Part shown: positions 19,520-56,080 of the stretch, piece by piece | How positions within the stretch are numbered: the first letter of the stretch is position 1 | How the letters are laid out: every line of letters starts with the position of its first letter | Source of the DNA: Gemmatimonadetes bacterium SCN 70-22 | GTDB lineage: Bacteria > Gemmatimonadota > Gemmatimonadetes > Gemmatimonadales > Gemmatimonadaceae | Assembly: GCA_001724275.1 (NCBI GenBank) | Contig: MEDZ01000004.1 | Coordinates: 186,001-250,000, forward strand | Direction: 5' to 3' | DNA length: 64,000 bases | The notes under the pieces: generated by a model | What the model was told of the DNA's origin: nothing | Databases searched by the model: none | Seen by the model: only the letters and a program-made list of their open reading frames with translations | Made by a program: the position numbers and the translations under genes

Positions 19520-19554
19520 CAGAGCACGAGAGGACGAGAAGACGAGAGACAGCG

Positions 19555-21255: not shown

Positions 21256-23043
21256 CTACTCCTCGCCCGCCGCCTCCTCCTCGACCGGGATCTCCCCGAC
21301 GATGTCGCCATCCTCGGTGTGGATCTTCGACGGGGTCTCCGGCTTGGGGGGCTGCTCCGCCGGGATGTCGGTGACGGTGAGGACGATGCGGCGGTGGATG
21401 GGATCGACCTCGACCACGCGCAGGTCGAGGTTCATCCCTTCCCAGCAGATGTCGGCCGGGGAGGTGATGGCCTTGTCGGAGGGGAGGTGCGAGAGCGGGA
21501 CGAAGCCCTCGATGTCGTTGCCGATGTCGACCACGACCCCCTTCTCCATGAGGCGGACGACGCGCCCGCGGAGCTCGGTGCCGACCGGGTAGGTCTCGCC
21601 GATGCGGAGCCACGGATCCTCGCTGGCCTGCTTGAGGCCTAACGAGATGCGCTTGTTCTCGGCGTCGATGTTGAGGATCACGACGTCGACCGTGTCGCCC
21701 TTCTTGACCACTTCCGACGGGTGCTGGACGCGCTTGGTCCAGGACATGTCGGAGATGTGGATGAGGCCGTCGATGCCGGGCTCGATCTCGACGAAGGCGC
21801 CGAACGAGGTGAGGTTGCGGACCTTGCCGGAGAGGCGTGTCCCGACCGGGTACTTGAGCGGGAGGACCATCCACGGATCCTGCTCGGTCTGCTTCATGCC
21901 GAGCGAGATCTTCTCCTCGTTCGGATCGACCTTGAGGACCACGGCCTCGATGGTCTCACCGATGGAGACGATCTTGGACGGATGGCGGACGTTGCGGGTC
22001 CACGACATCTCGCTGATGTGCACGAGCCCCTCGATGCCGGGCTCGAGCTCGATGAAGGCGCCGTAGTTGGTGATCGAGACGACCTTGCCGGCGACGCGCG
22101 TGCCGACCGGGTACTTCTCGATGACGTCCTTCCACGGGTACGGCTGCAGCTGCTTGAGGCCGAGCGAGATGCGCTCGCGCTCCCAGTCGATGTCGAGGAC
22201 CTTGACCTCGAGCTCCTGCCCGATGTGCACCATCTCGGTGGGGTGCGAGATGCGCCCCCACGACATGTCGGTGATGTGCAGGAGGCCGTCGACGCCCCCG
22301 AGGTCGATGAAGGCGCCGAAGTCGGTGATGTTCTTGACCACGCCCTTCCGGACCTGGTCCTTCTGGAGCTCCTTCATGAGCTTCTCGCGCTTGCCGGCCC
22401 GCTCGGTCTCGAGGATCACGCGGCGCGAGACGACGATGTTGCGGCGGCGCTTGTTGAGCTTGATGATCTTGAACTCGTACTTCTGCCCCAGGAGCTCGTC
22501 GATGTTGGGGACGCGCCGCAGCGCGATCTGCGACCCCGGGAGGAAGGCGTCGACGCCCATGAGGTCGACGACCACGCCGCCCTTGATCTTCTTGACGAGC
22601 GTTCCCTCGACCGGATGGTCCGTCTCGTACGCGACGCGGATCTTCTCCCAGACGCGCATGAAGTCGGCCTTCTTCTTGGAGAGGACGACCGACCCCTCCT
22701 GGTCCTCGAGGTGCTCGAGGAGGACTTCCACCTCGTCGCCCGGCTTGAGGTCGGGCATGTCCTTGAATTCCTCGAGCGGGATCGTCCCCTCGGACTTGAA
22801 GCCGATGTCGAGGACGACCATGTTCTCGCGGATTTCGAGCACGCGCGACTTCACGATCTCGCCCTCGTCGATCGACGCGAGCGTCCCGTTATACATCTCC
22901 ATCATCTGCTCGTACTCGGCAGATGAGTATTCGTCTTCGTCGTACAATTCGGGGCGGCGGTTGGCCAGCGGGCGCAGCTCGGCCTTCTGGGCCTTGCGCT
23001 TCTCCACGACCGACATGCCAGCGGTGGTCTCGAGCTCGGACAT
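21256..23043 (-). CDS. rpsA: 30S ribosomal protein S1
   Basis: Binds mRNA and presents it to the 30S subunit. Start at ATG 23043-23041 (MSELETTAGMSVVEKRK), with GGAG about a dozen bases upstream. The 595-residue product contains six S1/OB repeats beginning near residues 60, 145, 235, 320, 405 and 495. Repeats 3-5 show the motif DFGAFIDLGGVDGLLHITDMSW and close relatives followed by RISLGLKQ, while the first two are diverged as usual for ribosome-binding repeats. A short acidic tail (EEEAAGEE) ends it. One of three near-identical ISLGLKQ or ISLGMKQ sites uses TTA-GGC inside a CGTTAGGC octamer (21637-21644), the others do not. Confidence 0.96.
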   Translation of the reverse strand: MSELETTAGMSVVEKRKAQKAELRPLANRRPELYDEDEYSSAEYEQMMEMYNGTLASIDEGEIVKSRVLEIRENMVVLDIGFKSEGTIPLEEFKDMPDLKPGDEVEVLLEHLEDQEGSVVLSKKKADFMRVWEKIRVAYETDHPVEGTLVKKIKGGVVVDLMGVDAFLPGSQIALRRVPNIDELLGQKYEFKIIKLNKRRRNIVVSRRVILETERAGKREKLMKELQKDQVRKGVVKNITDFGAFIDLGGVDGLLHITDMSWGRISHPTEMVHIGQELEVKVLDIDWERERISLGLKQLQPYPWKDVIEKYPVGTRVAGKVVSITNYGAFIELEPGIEGLVHISEMSWTRNVRHPSKIVSIGETIEAVVLKVDPNEEKISLGMKQTEQDPWMVLPLKYPVGTRLSGKVRNLTSFGAFVEIEPGIDGLIHISDMSWTKRVQHPSEVVKKGDTVDVVILNIDAENKRISLGLKQASEDPWLRIGETYPVGTELRGRVVRLMEKGVVVDIGNDIEGFVPLSHLPSDKAITSPADICWEGMNLDLRVVEVDPIHRRIVLTVTDIPAEQPPKPETPSKIHTEDGDIVGEIPVEEEAAGEE

Positions 23044-23257
23044 AGGACGGGTGTCTCCGTGACAGCGGATATTTAGGCTCGCCGCGACGAGGTTGAGTGA
23101 AGGGCCCCCCTGCCTCGCCGGGTCGACCGCGCCGGCGGGGCACCAGGAAAGTCCGGGATCGGGGAACCGAGAAGAATAGCCGGGAACGAGGCGTCCGGTC
23201 AACGGGAGGGAGCCTCGGGGGTGCGGGCCGCGAATCGCACGTTACCTTGCCGCCCTG

Positions 23258-25075
23258 ATGGCCTCACCCTCCCCCCGCCTCCCCGCACGCAGATGGCGCC
23301 TCGACCGGCTCCTGCGCCTCGTCGCCCGGGGGCGGCGCGCCCTCGCCGCGCGGTTCCGCCAGGTTGCGACGAGCGACGAGGCCGTGCTCCTGATCCTCGC
23401 CGTCCCCGTCGGCGCGCTGACGGCCCTGGGCGTCCTCGCCTTCTATCGCGGGATCTCCGCGGCGCACGCGCTCTTCCTCGTCGCGCCAGCCACCCTCCTC
23501 CCCCCACTCGGCCTCCTCGCCCTCCGCCCCGTCGTCATCGCGGCCGCGTTCGCCGCTGCCAGCGCCGTGATGCGCCACCTCGGGCACGATCACGACGGGA
23601 TGAACGTCCCCGACATCATCCGCGCCGTCGCGTCCCGCGGTGGTCGCATCCCCGTGCGCCCCGCCGTCGCCCGGACGATCGCGAGCGCCATCACGATCGG
23701 CGGGGGCGGATCTGCCGGCAGCGAAGGGCCCCTCGTCGTGGGCGGCGCCGGCGTGGGGTCGTGGGTGGCGCGGCTCTTCCGGGTCGACGCCTCCGTCACC
23801 CGCGTCCTGGCGGGGTGCGGGACGGCGGCCGCCATCGCGGCCGCATTCAATGCGCCGCTGGCGGGGGCGTTCTTCGCGCTCGAAGAGGTGCTCGGCGCCT
23901 TCTCCGGGGCGTCGTTCTCTCCGGTGGTGGTCGCCAGCGTCGTGAGCGTCGTCGTCTCACGCGGGCTCTTCGGGAGCGCCCCCGCCTTTCCGGTCCCCTC
24001 CACGCTCGGCGGGCCGGATCTCCTGGAGATCTGGGTCCTCCTCCCCGTACTGGGGGCGATCTGCGCCCTCGCCTCCGCGCTCTACGTGCGCACCTACTTT
24101 GCCGCCGAGGACGTCGCGCGTTCATCGAAGGTGCCGCGATGGGCTCGCCCGCTGATCGGCGGGCTGGTGGTGGGGCTCCTCCTGTTCGGATCGCGGGGAG
24201 CGCTGGCCGGCGACATTCACCTCGCGGCACCGCTCGACCTGTTCGGCGCGCTTCCGTGGTGGACGCTGTTTGCCCTCGCTGCGGGGAAGATCCTGGCGAC
24301 CTCGGTCACCTTGAACTTCGGCGGCTCGGGTGGGGTCTTCACACCTTCGCTCTTCGTGGGGGCAGCCACGGGGGGAGCGTTCGGCTCGTTGTGCGCGCAA
24401 CTCCTGCCGGGGCGCGGGATCGATCCGGCACTCTACTCGGTGGCGGGGATGGGGGCGTTGGTGGCCGGGGCCACCGGGGCGCCGATCACGGGGATCCTCC
24501 TCGTGTTCGAGATGACGAACGACTTCACGCTCGTCCTCCCGCTGATGCTGGCCGTGGTCTCGTGCAAGACGCTGATGCGCCGCCTCGAGCGCGACTCGCT
24601 GTATTCGGGATGGCTGCGGCGACGGGGGGCCGCAGCCGAGGCGCCGGACGTGAGCCTGCGCACGGTGGGCGACGTCCTCGACCCGGCGCCGGCCATGCTG
24701 CGCGAGGCGACGACGGTCGCGCAGGCGCTCTCGCTGTTGGGCCGCCAGCCGCAATCCGTGCTTCCCGTGGTCGACGCCGAGGGGCGCTACATCGGCGTGG
24801 TGACGCCGATGGCACTGGGCGAGGCCATGCGCGACGCGCCGCAACTCGCCACGACGCTCATCGCCGCCGACCTCGCCACGGCGGTCGACCCGCTGACGCC
24901 CGACGCGTCGTTGGCCGAGGCGGCCACGCGCTTCCGCGCCACGCCGCACGAGGCCATTCCGGTGGTCGGCGCCAGCGATGGGCACCTGCTGGGACTCGTC
25001 TCCCGCGCTCACCTGCTGGCGAGCTACGAGCAGGCCCTGCGCGCGGCCCAGGATCCGTTGCGCGCGCCGCCCTAG
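23258..25075 (+). CDS. ClC-family chloride channel or H+/Cl- antiporter with CBS domains
   Basis: Integral membrane anion transporter, 605 residues. About 40-440 is the ClC core with multiple hydrophobic helices. It contains the selectivity motif GSAGSEGPLV with the gating glutamate at residue 156, the second pore motif NFGGSGGVFTPSLFVGAATGG, and GMGALVAGATGAPITGILLVFEMT. The C-terminal 150 residues form a pair of CBS domains (VGDVLDPAPAMLREATTVAQALSLL and TPDASLAEAATRFRATPHEAIPVV). The Glu gate is kept, which suits an antiporter, but that does not prove it. Its stop lies inside a 60-bp tandem duplication shared with the convergent cmk. Confidence 0.93.
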   Translation: MASPSPRLPARRWRLDRLLRLVARGRRALAARFRQVATSDEAVLLILAVPVGALTALGVLAFYRGISAAHALFLVAPATLLPPLGLLALRPVVIAAAFAAASAVMRHLGHDHDGMNVPDIIRAVASRGGRIPVRPAVARTIASAITIGGGGSAGSEGPLVVGGAGVGSWVARLFRVDASVTRVLAGCGTAAAIAAAFNAPLAGAFFALEEVLGAFSGASFSPVVVASVVSVVVSRGLFGSAPAFPVPSTLGGPDLLEIWVLLPVLGAICALASALYVRTYFAAEDVARSSKVPRWARPLIGGLVVGLLLFGSRGALAGDIHLAAPLDLFGALPWWTLFALAAGKILATSVTLNFGGSGGVFTPSLFVGAATGGAFGSLCAQLLPGRGIDPALYSVAGMGALVAGATGAPITGILLVFEMTNDFTLVLPLMLAVVSCKTLMRRLERDSLYSGWLRRRGAAAEAPDVSLRTVGDVLDPAPAMLREATTVAQALSLLGRQPQSVLPVVDAEGRYIGVVTPMALGEAMRDAPQLATTLIAADLATAVDPLTPDASLAEAATRFRATPHEAIPVVGASDGHLLGLVSRAHLLASYEQALRAAQDPLRAPP

Positions 25076-25160
25076 TCGGGGCGGCGTGACCGGGTCGCGC
25101 GCGCGGCCCAGGATCCGTTGCGCGCGCCGCCCTAGTCGGGGCGGCGTGACCGGGTCGCGC
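25041..25160. repeat. 60-bp perfect tandem duplication at convergent gene ends
   Basis: Bases 25041-25100 are repeated exactly as 25101-25160. Each copy contains CTAG, which is TAG on both strands: the first copy ends the ClC gene, the second ends cmk. Before duplication the two convergent genes would have shared the same CTAG. Confidence 0.9.
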
Positions 25161-25842
25161 GCGCCAGCGCCACGATGCGTTCCACCTGTTCGGCCTGCGT
25201 CAGGTAGGTCGTGTCGATGAGGACGGCGTCCTTGGCCTGGACGGTCTGGGTCGCGTCGGCGGCGTCGCGGTGCACCAGGCGGTCGGTCTCCTCGGCGATC
25301 TCGGCATCGAGCGGGCGACGCCCGAGGCGCTGTACCAGCCGTCGGCGTGCGCGCTCCCACGGGTCGGCCACCAGGAAGACCTTGAGCTCCGCGTCGGGGA
25401 AGACCGCCGTCCCCATGTCGCGCCCGTCGCAGACGACGTCGTGCGACCGGGCCACCTCGCGCACCTGGGCGTTGACCCACCCGCGGACGACCTGCATCTG
25501 CGCGACGAGCGAGACGTGGCGCGTCACCTCCGGGCTCCGGATCTCGTCCCTCGCCGGCTCGCCGTCGACGAGCGGGGTGAACGAGGTCTCGGTGGGAACG
25601 AGCCCCACCCGTTGCGCCTGCGCGAGCACCCACGCCGGCGTCCACTCGCTGGCGGGGAGCCCGGTGCGCAGGGCGGCGGCGGTGGCGGCGCGATAGAGGG
25701 CCCCGGAATCGACGTGCCGGAAGCCGAGCTCTGCCGCCACCCACTGCGCGGTGGACGACTTGCCCGAAGCCGCCGGGCCATCGATCGCGATGGCGATGTG
25801 GCCTCCGCGCCAGTTGGCGGGCGCCGGCCTAACGGGCGACAT
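25132..25842 (-). CDS. cmk: cytidylate kinase
   Basis: Phosphorylates CMP and dCMP. The 236-residue product has the P-loop IAIDGPAASGKSS (residues 18-30), then FRHVDSGALYRAATAAALR (the conserved LDTGAMYR equivalent) and VVCDGRDMGTAVFPDAELKVFLVAD. A C-terminal DTTYLTQAEQVERIV closes the fold. It overlaps the end of aroA by 14 bases; the aroA-cmk order (followed in many bacteria by rpsA) is a common arrangement, and rpsA indeed lies just beyond the ClC gene here. The last codons fall in the 60-bp duplication. Confidence 0.95.
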   Translation of the reverse strand: MSPVRPAPANWRGGHIAIAIDGPAASGKSSTAQWVAAELGFRHVDSGALYRAATAAALRTGLPASEWTPAWVLAQAQRVGLVPTETSFTPLVDGEPARDEIRSPEVTRHVSLVAQMQVVRGWVNAQVREVARSHDVVCDGRDMGTAVFPDAELKVFLVADPWERARRRLVQRLGRRPLDAEIAEETDRLVHRDAADATQTVQAKDAVLIDTTYLTQAEQVERIVALARATRSRRPD

Positions 25843-27109
25843 GGGCGAGGTCTTCCCAGAAGTGCGGGTACGAGACGGCCACGCACGACGGATCGTCGAC
25901 GGTGATGGTGCAGCCGCGCGATGCCCCCAGGATGCCGAAGGCCATGGCGATCCGGTGGTCCGCGTGCGTGAGCACGCGTCCGCTCAACGGGGCCTCGGTC
26001 CCGTGGACCACGAGTCCGTCGGGGAGCTCCTCCGCCTCGACGCCGACGGCGCGAAGGTTGGCGACGACGGCCGCGATCCGGTCGCTCTCCTTGACGCGCA
26101 GCTCCTCGGCGCCGCGCACCACCGTCGTTCCGACGGCGCGGGCGGCGAGGACGGCGAGCATCGGGACCTCGTCGATCATCGAGGTCACCTCGTCGCGCCC
26201 GACGGCGACGGCGCGCAGTCCGCTCCCCGCGTGCACCACGAGGTCGTCACGCCGCTCGCCGCTCCCCGTACTGGCGCGCACCTCCTCGATTCTCGCCCCC
26301 ATGCGACGGACCACGTGCAGGAAGCCGTCGCGGAAGGGGGAGCGCAGCACGTGCCGCACCACGAGGCTCCCCTCGTCGGCCAGGAGGGCGCGGGCCACGA
26401 AGAAGGCCGCCGACGAGGGATCGCCCGGGACGTCGAGGTCGAGCGGGGCGAGACGATCCGCCGGCTGCAACTCGATCCATCCGTCGCGGGTGGTGACACC
26501 GGCCCCCAGCGCGGCGAGCATGCGCTCGGTGTGGTCGCGCGTGGGAGCGGGCTCGCGCACCCGCACGGGGACGCGCCCGCACAGCCCGGCGAGGAGGATG
26601 GCGCTCTTGACCTGGGCGCTCGCCACGGGGAGTTCCCAGTCGATCGCGCGGAGGGGGGCGCCGTGGATGGTCATGGGAAGCCCGTCGTGCCCGTCCGGGA
26701 ACTCCACGCGCGCGCCCATCGCCTCGAGCGGGGCCGAGACGCGGCGCATGGGGCGGCGCGAGAGCGAGGGATCGCCCACGAAGGTGCTGGCGAACGGCTG
26801 CGCCGCGGCGACGCCGGCCATGAGGCGGGCGGTGGTGCCGCTGTTGTTGCACTGGAGACGGGAGACGGGAGACGGGAGACGGGAGGTGAAGCCGGCACCG
26901 TCGATGACCATCTCCGCGCTCACCTCGGGGACTGCCCATCCCAGGGTGCGCAGCACGCCGGCCGTGGACTTGACGTCGTCCGACTGGAGGATGCCGCGCA
27001 CGCGCGAGGTGCCGCTGGCGAAGGCGGAAAAGATCAGGGCGCGGTGGGAGACGGACTTGTCGCCCGGGACGCGGACCTCGCCGTGCACGGAGTCGGTCAC
27101 GCGCGCCAT
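25829..27109 (-). CDS. aroA: 3-phosphoshikimate 1-carboxyvinyltransferase (EPSP synthase)
   Basis: Sixth step of the shikimate pathway. Start at ATG 27109-27107 (ARVTDSVHGEVRVPGDKSVSHRALI), 2 bases after the dapD stop. The 426-residue product shows PGDKSVSHR, the NNSGTTARLMAG substrate motif, SRRPMRRVSAPLEAMGA, SAQVKSAILLAGL, DPSSAAFFVARA and RVKESDRI. The stretch SRLPSPVSRL just before NNSGTT is encoded by four exact copies of a 7-bp unit (26854-26881). The stop TAG lies in a CGTTAGGC octamer at 25827-25834. It is the penultimate gene of the lysine operon, preceding cmk. Confidence 0.95.
   Translation of the reverse strand: MARVTDSVHGEVRVPGDKSVSHRALIFSAFASGTSRVRGILQSDDVKSTAGVLRTLGWAVPEVSAEMVIDGAGFTSRLPSPVSRLQCNNSGTTARLMAGVAAAQPFASTFVGDPSLSRRPMRRVSAPLEAMGARVEFPDGHDGLPMTIHGAPLRAIDWELPVASAQVKSAILLAGLCGRVPVRVREPAPTRDHTERMLAALGAGVTTRDGWIELQPADRLAPLDLDVPGDPSSAAFFVARALLADEGSLVVRHVLRSPFRDGFLHVVRRMGARIEEVRASTGSGERRDDLVVHAGSGLRAVAVGRDEVTSMIDEVPMLAVLAARAVGTTVVRGAEELRVKESDRIAAVVANLRAVGVEAEELPDGLVVHGTEAPLSGRVLTHADHRIAMAFGILGASRGCTITVDDPSCVAVSYPHFWEDLAHVAR
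26854..26881. repeat. 7-bp microsatellite inside aroA
   Basis: Four exact tandem copies of GGAGACG (plus strand), then a degenerate fifth (GGAGGTG). Because the unit is not a multiple of three, gain or loss of one copy would shift the aroA frame just before its NNSGTT motif. Confidence 0.9.
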
Positions 27110-27111
27110 GC

Positions 27112-27972
27112 CTAACGCAGCCACCCTTCGAGGGTGGTGGCCAGGTCGGTCTTGTCGTCGCGGTACTTGACGATGATCGGCGTCTGGAGCGAGAGGGCGA
27201 GCGAGGCGCCCCATCCCTCACGCACCGCCCGCGCCCCGGGGACGACGACGGCGCCGGCCGGGATCTCGAGCGGCGCGTCGCCCGAGCCGCGATAGACCGT
27301 CTCGCGCACCAGGTCGTACACCGGGGTCCCGCGCGTCAGGACGACGCCGGCGGCGAGGACGGCGCGCGCGCGCACGACGGTGCCCTCGTAGACCCCGCAG
27401 TTCCCGCCGACGATGACCTCGTCCTCGATCACGACCGGGGCGGCGTTCACCGGCTCCAGCACGCCGCCCACCTGGGCGGCGGCACTCACGTGGACGCGCT
27501 CCCCCACTTGGGCGCACGAACCGATCAGCGCGTGCGAATCGACCATCGTCCCGGTCCCGATGTGGGCGCCGACGTTGATGTACATGGGCGGCATGCAGAC
27601 CACCCCCGGCGCCACGTAGGCGCCCCGGCGGATGGACGATCCCCCGGGGACGACGCGCACGCCGTCGTCGAGGGTGAGGCGACGCGTGGGGAGTGTGTGC
27701 TTGTCGAAGAAGGTGAAGGCGCCCCCCTCCGTCGGGTGCAACGTGACGACCCGGCCGGCGCGGAACGCGACCAGGATCCCCTGCTTGACCCAGGGGACCG
27801 CCTGCCAGCGTCCGGCGTCATCGCGCCGTGCCGCCCGGATCTCGCCGCGCTCGAGGCGATCGAGCAGCTCGGCCACCACCGCCTCGGCATCGTCCGCGAG
27901 CGGGGTGCCGGCCGGGGTGGCGGCCAGGGCGGTGATGCGAGCGGCGAGGGCGTCGTGCGCGGGGTGACTCAT
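27112..27972 (-). CDS. dapD: tetrahydrodipicolinate N-succinyltransferase
   Basis: Succinylates tetrahydrodipicolinate in the succinylase branch of DAP/lysine synthesis. Start at ATG 27972-27970 (MSHPAHDALAARITALA), overlapping the dapA stop as ATGA. The 286-residue product has an N-terminal helical domain followed by a left-handed beta-helix of hexapeptide repeats (VPGGSSIRRGAYVAPGVVCM, YINVGAHIGTGTMVDSHALIGS, ERVHVSAAAQVGGVLEPVNA, VIVGGNCGVYEGTVVRARAV). Its presence argues that DAP is made by succinylated intermediates and hence for a DapE desuccinylase. The stop TAG sits in a CGTTAGGC octamer (27110-27117) that runs into the aroA ATG. Confidence 0.95.
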   Translation of the reverse strand: MSHPAHDALAARITALAATPAGTPLADDAEAVVAELLDRLERGEIRAARRDDAGRWQAVPWVKQGILVAFRAGRVVTLHPTEGGAFTFFDKHTLPTRRLTLDDGVRVVPGGSSIRRGAYVAPGVVCMPPMYINVGAHIGTGTMVDSHALIGSCAQVGERVHVSAAAQVGGVLEPVNAAPVVIEDEVIVGGNCGVYEGTVVRARAVLAAGVVLTRGTPVYDLVRETVYRGSGDAPLEIPAGAVVVPGARAVREGWGASLALSLQTPIIVKYRDDKTDLATTLEGWLR

Positions 27973-33119: not shown

Positions 33120-33260
33120 CGCGCAGCGCGACCAGCCGCGCGCCACCGCGCGCGCCGAGCCACCGCACCGCCTCGACATGAGAAAAAACAAAAGACGAGA
33201 CCACGAGCCCCGCCCCCTCGCGTCTTCCCGTCTTCTCGCCTTCTCGTCCTCCAGATCAGA
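33120..33260. other. tRNA spacer with CTTCTCGTC-type simple repeat
   Basis: Between the two tRNAs the plus strand contains AAAAAACAAAAG near 33183 and then a run of imperfect 8-10 bp units (CGTCTTCCCGTCTTCTCGCC, 33221-33241) similar to the 19521-19550 stretch before accC. No gene is seen. Confidence 0.5.
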
Positions 33261-38288: not shown

Positions 38289-38380
38289 GCGCGTGCCGAA
38301 GCGCGTGCCGAAGCGCGTGCCGAAGCGCGTGCCGAAGCGCGTGCCGAAGCGCGTGCCGAAGCGCGTGCCGAAGCGCGTGA
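38289..38380. repeat. 12-bp tandem repeat array
   Basis: Seven exact copies of GCGCGTGCCGAA (38289-38372) and a partial eighth, in the convergent spacer between the barrel protein and recN. The unit is a multiple of three and gives open frames on both strands, but none has gene-like context. Confidence 0.93.
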
Positions 38381-53849: not shown

Positions 53850-53920
53850 CGGTCCCGACCACATTTCCTGCCCATTCCGCCCCACGAGGGGCGCTGAGCC
53901 CCGCCCCGCTTGGCCCACGG

Positions 53921-54054
53921 CCACCCACGGCCACCTACGGCCACCCACGGCCACCTACGGCCACCTACGGCCACCTACGGCCACCTACGGCCACCTACGG
54001 CCACCTACGGCCACCTACGGCCACCCGCCGCCTACGGCCACCCGCCGCCTACGC
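53921..54054. repeat. 10-bp and 17-bp tandem repeat array
   Basis: Ten consecutive 10-bp units CCACCTACGG (two with C for T at position 6) from 53921 to 54020, then two 17-bp units beginning CCACCCGCCGCCTACG (54021-54054). It fills most of the gap between the infC promoter and the hydrolase gene at 54076. The whole gap 53608-54075 thus holds only the infC leader and this array. Confidence 0.93.
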
Positions 54055-54075
54055 GCCGCCGCGCGCCGCCCTCCC

Positions 54076-55990: not shown

Positions 55991-56025
55991 CCGCGCGCCT
56001 CGCGGCTGGCCGTGGCGCAGCTGTC

Positions 56026-56080
56026 GGTCGCACCGGTGCCGGTCGCACCGGTGCCGGTCGCACCGGTGCCGGTCGCGCGG
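56026..56080. repeat. 15-bp tandem repeats flanked by 12-bp direct repeats
   Basis: Three exact copies of GGTCGCACCGGTGCC (56026-56070) and a partial fourth, flanked by CGCGGCTGGCCG at 56001-56012 and 56077-56088. The unit contains the palindrome ACCGGT. It sits between the exonuclease and rex. Confidence 0.9.

Follow-up and report, generated by a model that had tools for sequence, protein, structure and literature searches.

The convergent genes for a ClC-type chloride channel/transporter and for cytidylate kinase (cmk) meet here at a perfect 60-bp tandem duplication. It is most probably an ordinary short tandem duplication, formed by slippage or template switching between GCGCGC repeats at two convergent genes that ended on one CTAG. 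Slippage as the cause, a change from one copy to two and the presence of the duplication in the living organism are our inferences; the copies themselves and the genes around them are laid out below, with positions given in the window (the whole 64-kb stretch of DNA that was analysed).

21256-23202, minus strand: ORF beyond ClC with putative rpsA (ribosomal protein S1); the ORF start is probably too long
23258-25075, plus strand: gene for a 605-aa ClC-type chloride channel/transporter that carries CBS domains (Pfam Voltage_CLC and CBS)
25039-25098, no strand: duplication copy 1 (60-bp unit, leftmost register)
25072-25075, no strand: CTAG of copy 1, holding the ClC stop TAG (25073-25075, plus strand)
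25099-25158, no strand: duplication copy 2 (60-bp unit, identical to copy 1)
25132-25135, no strand: CTAG of copy 2, holding the cmk stop CTA (25132-25134, minus strand)
25132-25842, minus strand: cmk, cytidylate kinase, 236-aa ORF with a putative start codon (Pfam Cytidylate_kin)
25159-25164, no strand: GCGCGC that extends the identity of the duplication by 6 bp, an edge direct repeat with 25039-25044 and 25099-25104
25829-27214, minus strand: aroA (EPSP synthase), upstream of cmk

A sequence-only reading had reported a perfect 60-bp tandem duplication at the convergent ClC and cmk stops, and both direct reading and Tandem Repeats Finder (25039-25164, period 60, 2.1 copies, 100% matches, 0% indels) bear this out. 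The unit copies stand head-to-tail with no gap between them. Read directly in the sequence, the run of exact identity at lag 60 spans 66 bp (25039-25104 against 25099-25164), 6 bp more than the lag, since each edge of the unit bears the short direct repeat GCGCGC. The copies had earlier been placed at 25041-25100 and 25101-25160; their identity holds, while that register is one of seven equivalent ones and the true run is the longer, 66-bp one.

The present-day stops lie 56 bp apart, and the two genes thus lack a 4-bp stop overlap as the sequence stands. When one copy was collapsed by script, the ClC and cmk proteins remained identical to the present ones and both stops fell on a single CTAG; this collapsed junction is a model, not an observed allele. 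Together with a relative (G168, locus L110) in which one CTAA is common to both stops, the collapse lends support to the earlier proposal of a shared ancestral CTAG. Convergent stops that share CTAA, TTAA, CTAG or TTAG form a recognised class (PMC2174442). The inferred ClC/cmk ancestor, sharing CTAG, and G168, sharing CTAA, resemble this class, whereas the present junction differs from it in that the overlap is gone and 56 bp separate the stops. A single-copy orthologue of exactly this junction was found in none of the relatives examined, those of its own genus included, so that we infer rather than observe the change from one copy to two. The own-genus sample comprises three genomes, each a different species: the G001 contig stops partway through cmk, and in G002 (cmk 87%) no ClC lies between cmk and rpsA. 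The tetramer CTAG is scarce across the 64-kb window, with 11 occurrences against about 38 expected (Markov estimate), two of the 11 falling within the duplication.

Short tandem duplications with flanking microhomology are typical products of replication slippage or template switching, and stem-loops promote slippage. At an ancestral junction where ClC and cmk ended on one shared CTAG, slippage or switching from one GCGCGC repeat to another 60 bp away would have duplicated the intervening segment. With both gene ends inside that segment, each gene would have kept an intact end, ClC in copy 1 and cmk in copy 2, and the duplication would therefore have cost neither protein anything; the outcome would be two unaltered proteins with 56 bp placed between their stops. 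The junction shares with microhomology-flanked duplications its perfect head-to-tail copies and short edge direct repeat and differs from them in nothing of substance, being known here from the duplicated allele alone. Among the literature matches listed for slippage duplications, as far as their text was available, nothing was specific to this ClC/cmk case.

Whether the second copy is real was weighed against the quality of the assembly, a 4.70-Mb draft in 84 contigs. It is unlikely that two contig ends with an overlap of about 60 bp were joined unmerged, leaving a second copy that does not exist, although the perfect identity of the copies would suit such a join and the assembly does break at repeats, as seen from three of the 18 contigs read from base 1, in which a perfect tandem array starts by base 13:

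L141 1-52: perfect array at the start of contig C17, unit 14 bp
L142 13-132: perfect array at the start of contig C18, unit 17 bp
L143 1-76: perfect array at the start of contig C19, unit 14 bp

Set against this, the chance rate for a blunt false join is low: edge identity extends by 6 bp or more at 0.41% of boundaries (measured over 400 kb of the genome, with lags of 30-100 in steps of 5 and runs of 30 or more dropped). The corresponding value for the 64-kb window is 0.46%, a figure that includes the 60-bp repeat itself. The 464 kb of the genome examined contain no N, and in short-read graph assembly such repeats are lost by collapse more often than they are falsely created. The 6-bp edge microhomology thus leans towards a real event over a blunt false join. 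A different rival accepts the duplication and makes it a selected change that parted overlapping convergent genes and doubled a stem-loop, yielding less transcription collision or a two-way terminator. The structures concerned are:

25065-25086, plus strand: stem-loop of copy 1, 8-bp perfect stem, 6-nt loop holding the stop
25125-25146, plus strand: stem-loop of copy 2, 8-bp perfect stem, 6-nt loop, same as in copy 1

We regard selection of this kind as highly improbable. The 8-bp perfect stem in each copy speaks for it, as does the folding of a 161-nt stretch with both copies at z -2.25, a value equalled in 5 of 200 shuffles; yet the copies give ordinary values when folded singly (z -1.23 and -1.64), and the ClC/cmk junctions of seven relatives fold at z -0.68 to +0.66, so that no conserved structure was seen across those seven junctions. 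Comparable stems are common, with 53 perfect 8-bp stems with loops of 3-8 nt in the 64-kb window, and the stem-loop of the 60-bp unit is therefore not rare. No T tract follows the stem, and a scan of 22800-27300 for intrinsic terminators (GC stem plus T run) returned none on either strand. Nor did a known structured RNA emerge: 24000-26500 gave two Rfam matches (E 0.53 and 0.63), both far below gathering scores. Slippage between the GCGCGC repeats remains the preferred account.

Other origins were considered and set aside. Searched against its own genome, the 66-bp sequence matches only its two tandem places at E below 0.04, unlike a dispersed repeat such as a REP or MITE; the next-best match covers 25 bp at 88% (E 0.04), and the weaker partial matches number 20, with E values of up to 0.94. 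For a plasmid-borne element, a collection of 72,556 plasmid records gave no match to the 311-bp junction at E 1e-5. A target-site duplication from insertion of ClC found no supporting link: the insertion is probably old, since the ClC genes here and in another genus (g24) group together in a tree and lie at the same place, whereas the 60-bp copies are identical.

Within 464,000 bases of this genome (the 64-kb window and a further 20 stretches, each of 20 kb, scanned for units of 9-1499 bp), perfect tandem duplications whose unit reaches 30 bp number just one, the 60-bp case described here. Perfect short-unit arrays are frequent, and all other perfect arrays have units of at most 24 bp, which makes a 60-bp unit unusual in this genome. 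Perfect or near-perfect examples in the window are:

26854-26885: short-unit array, 7 bp x 4.6
38289-38379: short-unit array, 12 bp x 7.6
53917-54070: short-unit array, 10 bp x about 13
56025-56076: short-unit array, 15 bp x 3.5

In relatives, 527,537 bases from 120 loci (scanned with units from 20 to 1499 bp; overlapping loci kept, five own-region loci excluded) held no perfect tandem duplication of unit size 30 bp or more, the sole match having a 20-bp unit. The duplication resembles minisatellite/VNTR loci in being tandem with perfect units and differs from them in having only 2.1 copies and a unit longer than that of any other perfect array in the 464 kb.

The duplication had also been called either recent or an assembly artefact. 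The observation behind this, zero differences in 60 bp, stands, and it sets no more than an upper bound on age, with copy divergence below about 4.9% at 95%. The cmk end differs from that of G002 by 15% over 91 bp; set beside the identity of the copies, this suggests that the duplication is probably younger than the split from G002. Gene conversion between the copies could mimic such youth.

We then compared the same gene pair in relatives. The nearest cmk proteins are encoded in records named Gemmatimonas, Gemmatimonadaceae, Gemmatimonadetes/Gemmatimonadota and, in one case, Roseisolibacter. Downstream of cmk and in the same direction, rpsA is present in 28 of 32 named cmk loci; three of the other four end within or shortly after cmk, and the last (L060) has about 4 kb without rpsA. 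Among the 17 g24 genomes, one gave no cmk match and 16 had the cmk region read. Between cmk and rpsA, ClC occupies the opposite strand both here and in eight of these 16 (L094, L106-L112), and cmk is followed by rpsA without ClC in the remaining eight. ClC and cmk are 1649 bp apart in one of the eight with ClC (G025) and adjacent in seven, with gaps of -4, 4, 4, 7, 15, 24 and 36 bp; the -4 bp case is the shared CTAA of G168, with the same geometry as inferred here. At these seven loci, perfect tandem duplications of unit size 20 bp or more were absent. In a tree of 27 rows, which left out G174 (g24), this genome's ClC groups with those of seven g24 genomes at a support of 100/100, suggesting that the arrangement between cmk and rpsA was probably inherited in common. 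The g24 versions of ClC align only to about residue 470, and their CBS part is seemingly missing, judged from alignment and ORF length and not from Pfam. In G002, a ClC match at E 1e-70 was absent among the candidates scored (7 of 17 first-look candidates); weak matches aside, what aligns with this genome there is the end of cmk and the stretch preceding rpsA. Two genomes of another genus (G030 and G180) carry about 2.7 kb without a ClC match between cmk and rpsA (L121 1637-4290 and L122 1392-4104), so that inserts may enter the space between these two genes repeatedly. The position of ClC between cmk and rpsA in two genera is of modest comparative interest.

Overall, the 60-bp duplication looks ordinary and unremarkable, like a usual copying slip. 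A broader reading, which we consider quite unlikely, is that duplication across a shared stop tetramer offers a cost-free route for separating overlapping convergent genes, with one step caught here; if true, the spread of gaps in relatives, from -4 to +36 bp, would reflect repeated cycles of overlap and release. Alone, this junction carries little weight: it is a single clean, protein-neutral case of a short duplication parting two stop-sharing genes.

The tandem scan made for base rates also brought up an octamer array, (CTTCTCGT)n, which reads (ACGAGAAG)n on the other strand. These arrays are stranger than the 60-bp duplication and separate from it, and they are the part of this genome that merits its own study. 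A perfect 24-mer of the array is placed 100 times in this genome, where each overlapping placement within one array counts separately, and its reversed control has none; exact matches occur in all three genomes of the genus and in none of the 38 other relatives searched. The locations are:

Window 19526-19549 and 33224-33247: degenerate octamer arrays
L131 19880-19936: octamer array
L132 3149-3201 and 13993-14034: octamer arrays
L143 10731-10781: octamer array
L146-L185: octamer arrays

We read 48 arrays, 25 from this genome and 23 from G002, mostly in contig order, the orthologous ones among them not being independent. On the purine-rich strand 28 of the 48 begin within 12 nt after a coding-like stop of the same sense, against four of the 48 on the other strand. 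Only 1.8% of 6000 random positions fall within 12 nt of such a stop; these positions lie mostly inside genes, and the opposite-strand count is therefore the fairer control. A same-sense stop within 40 nt could not be accepted for 19 of the 48, though by eye some of these do show one. Another gene finder gave 28 and 7 of the 48 within 40 bp and placed 19 of the 48 inside an ORF called coding; this shows that the gene calls around the arrays are rough. The repeat looks strand-specific and attached to gene 3' ends. Among the top literature matches listed, in the text available, no description of (ACGAGAAG)n arrays was found; the nearest kind among them is a repeat that forms quadruplexes and shows enrichment in Xanthomonas and Nostoc (PMC4692102).
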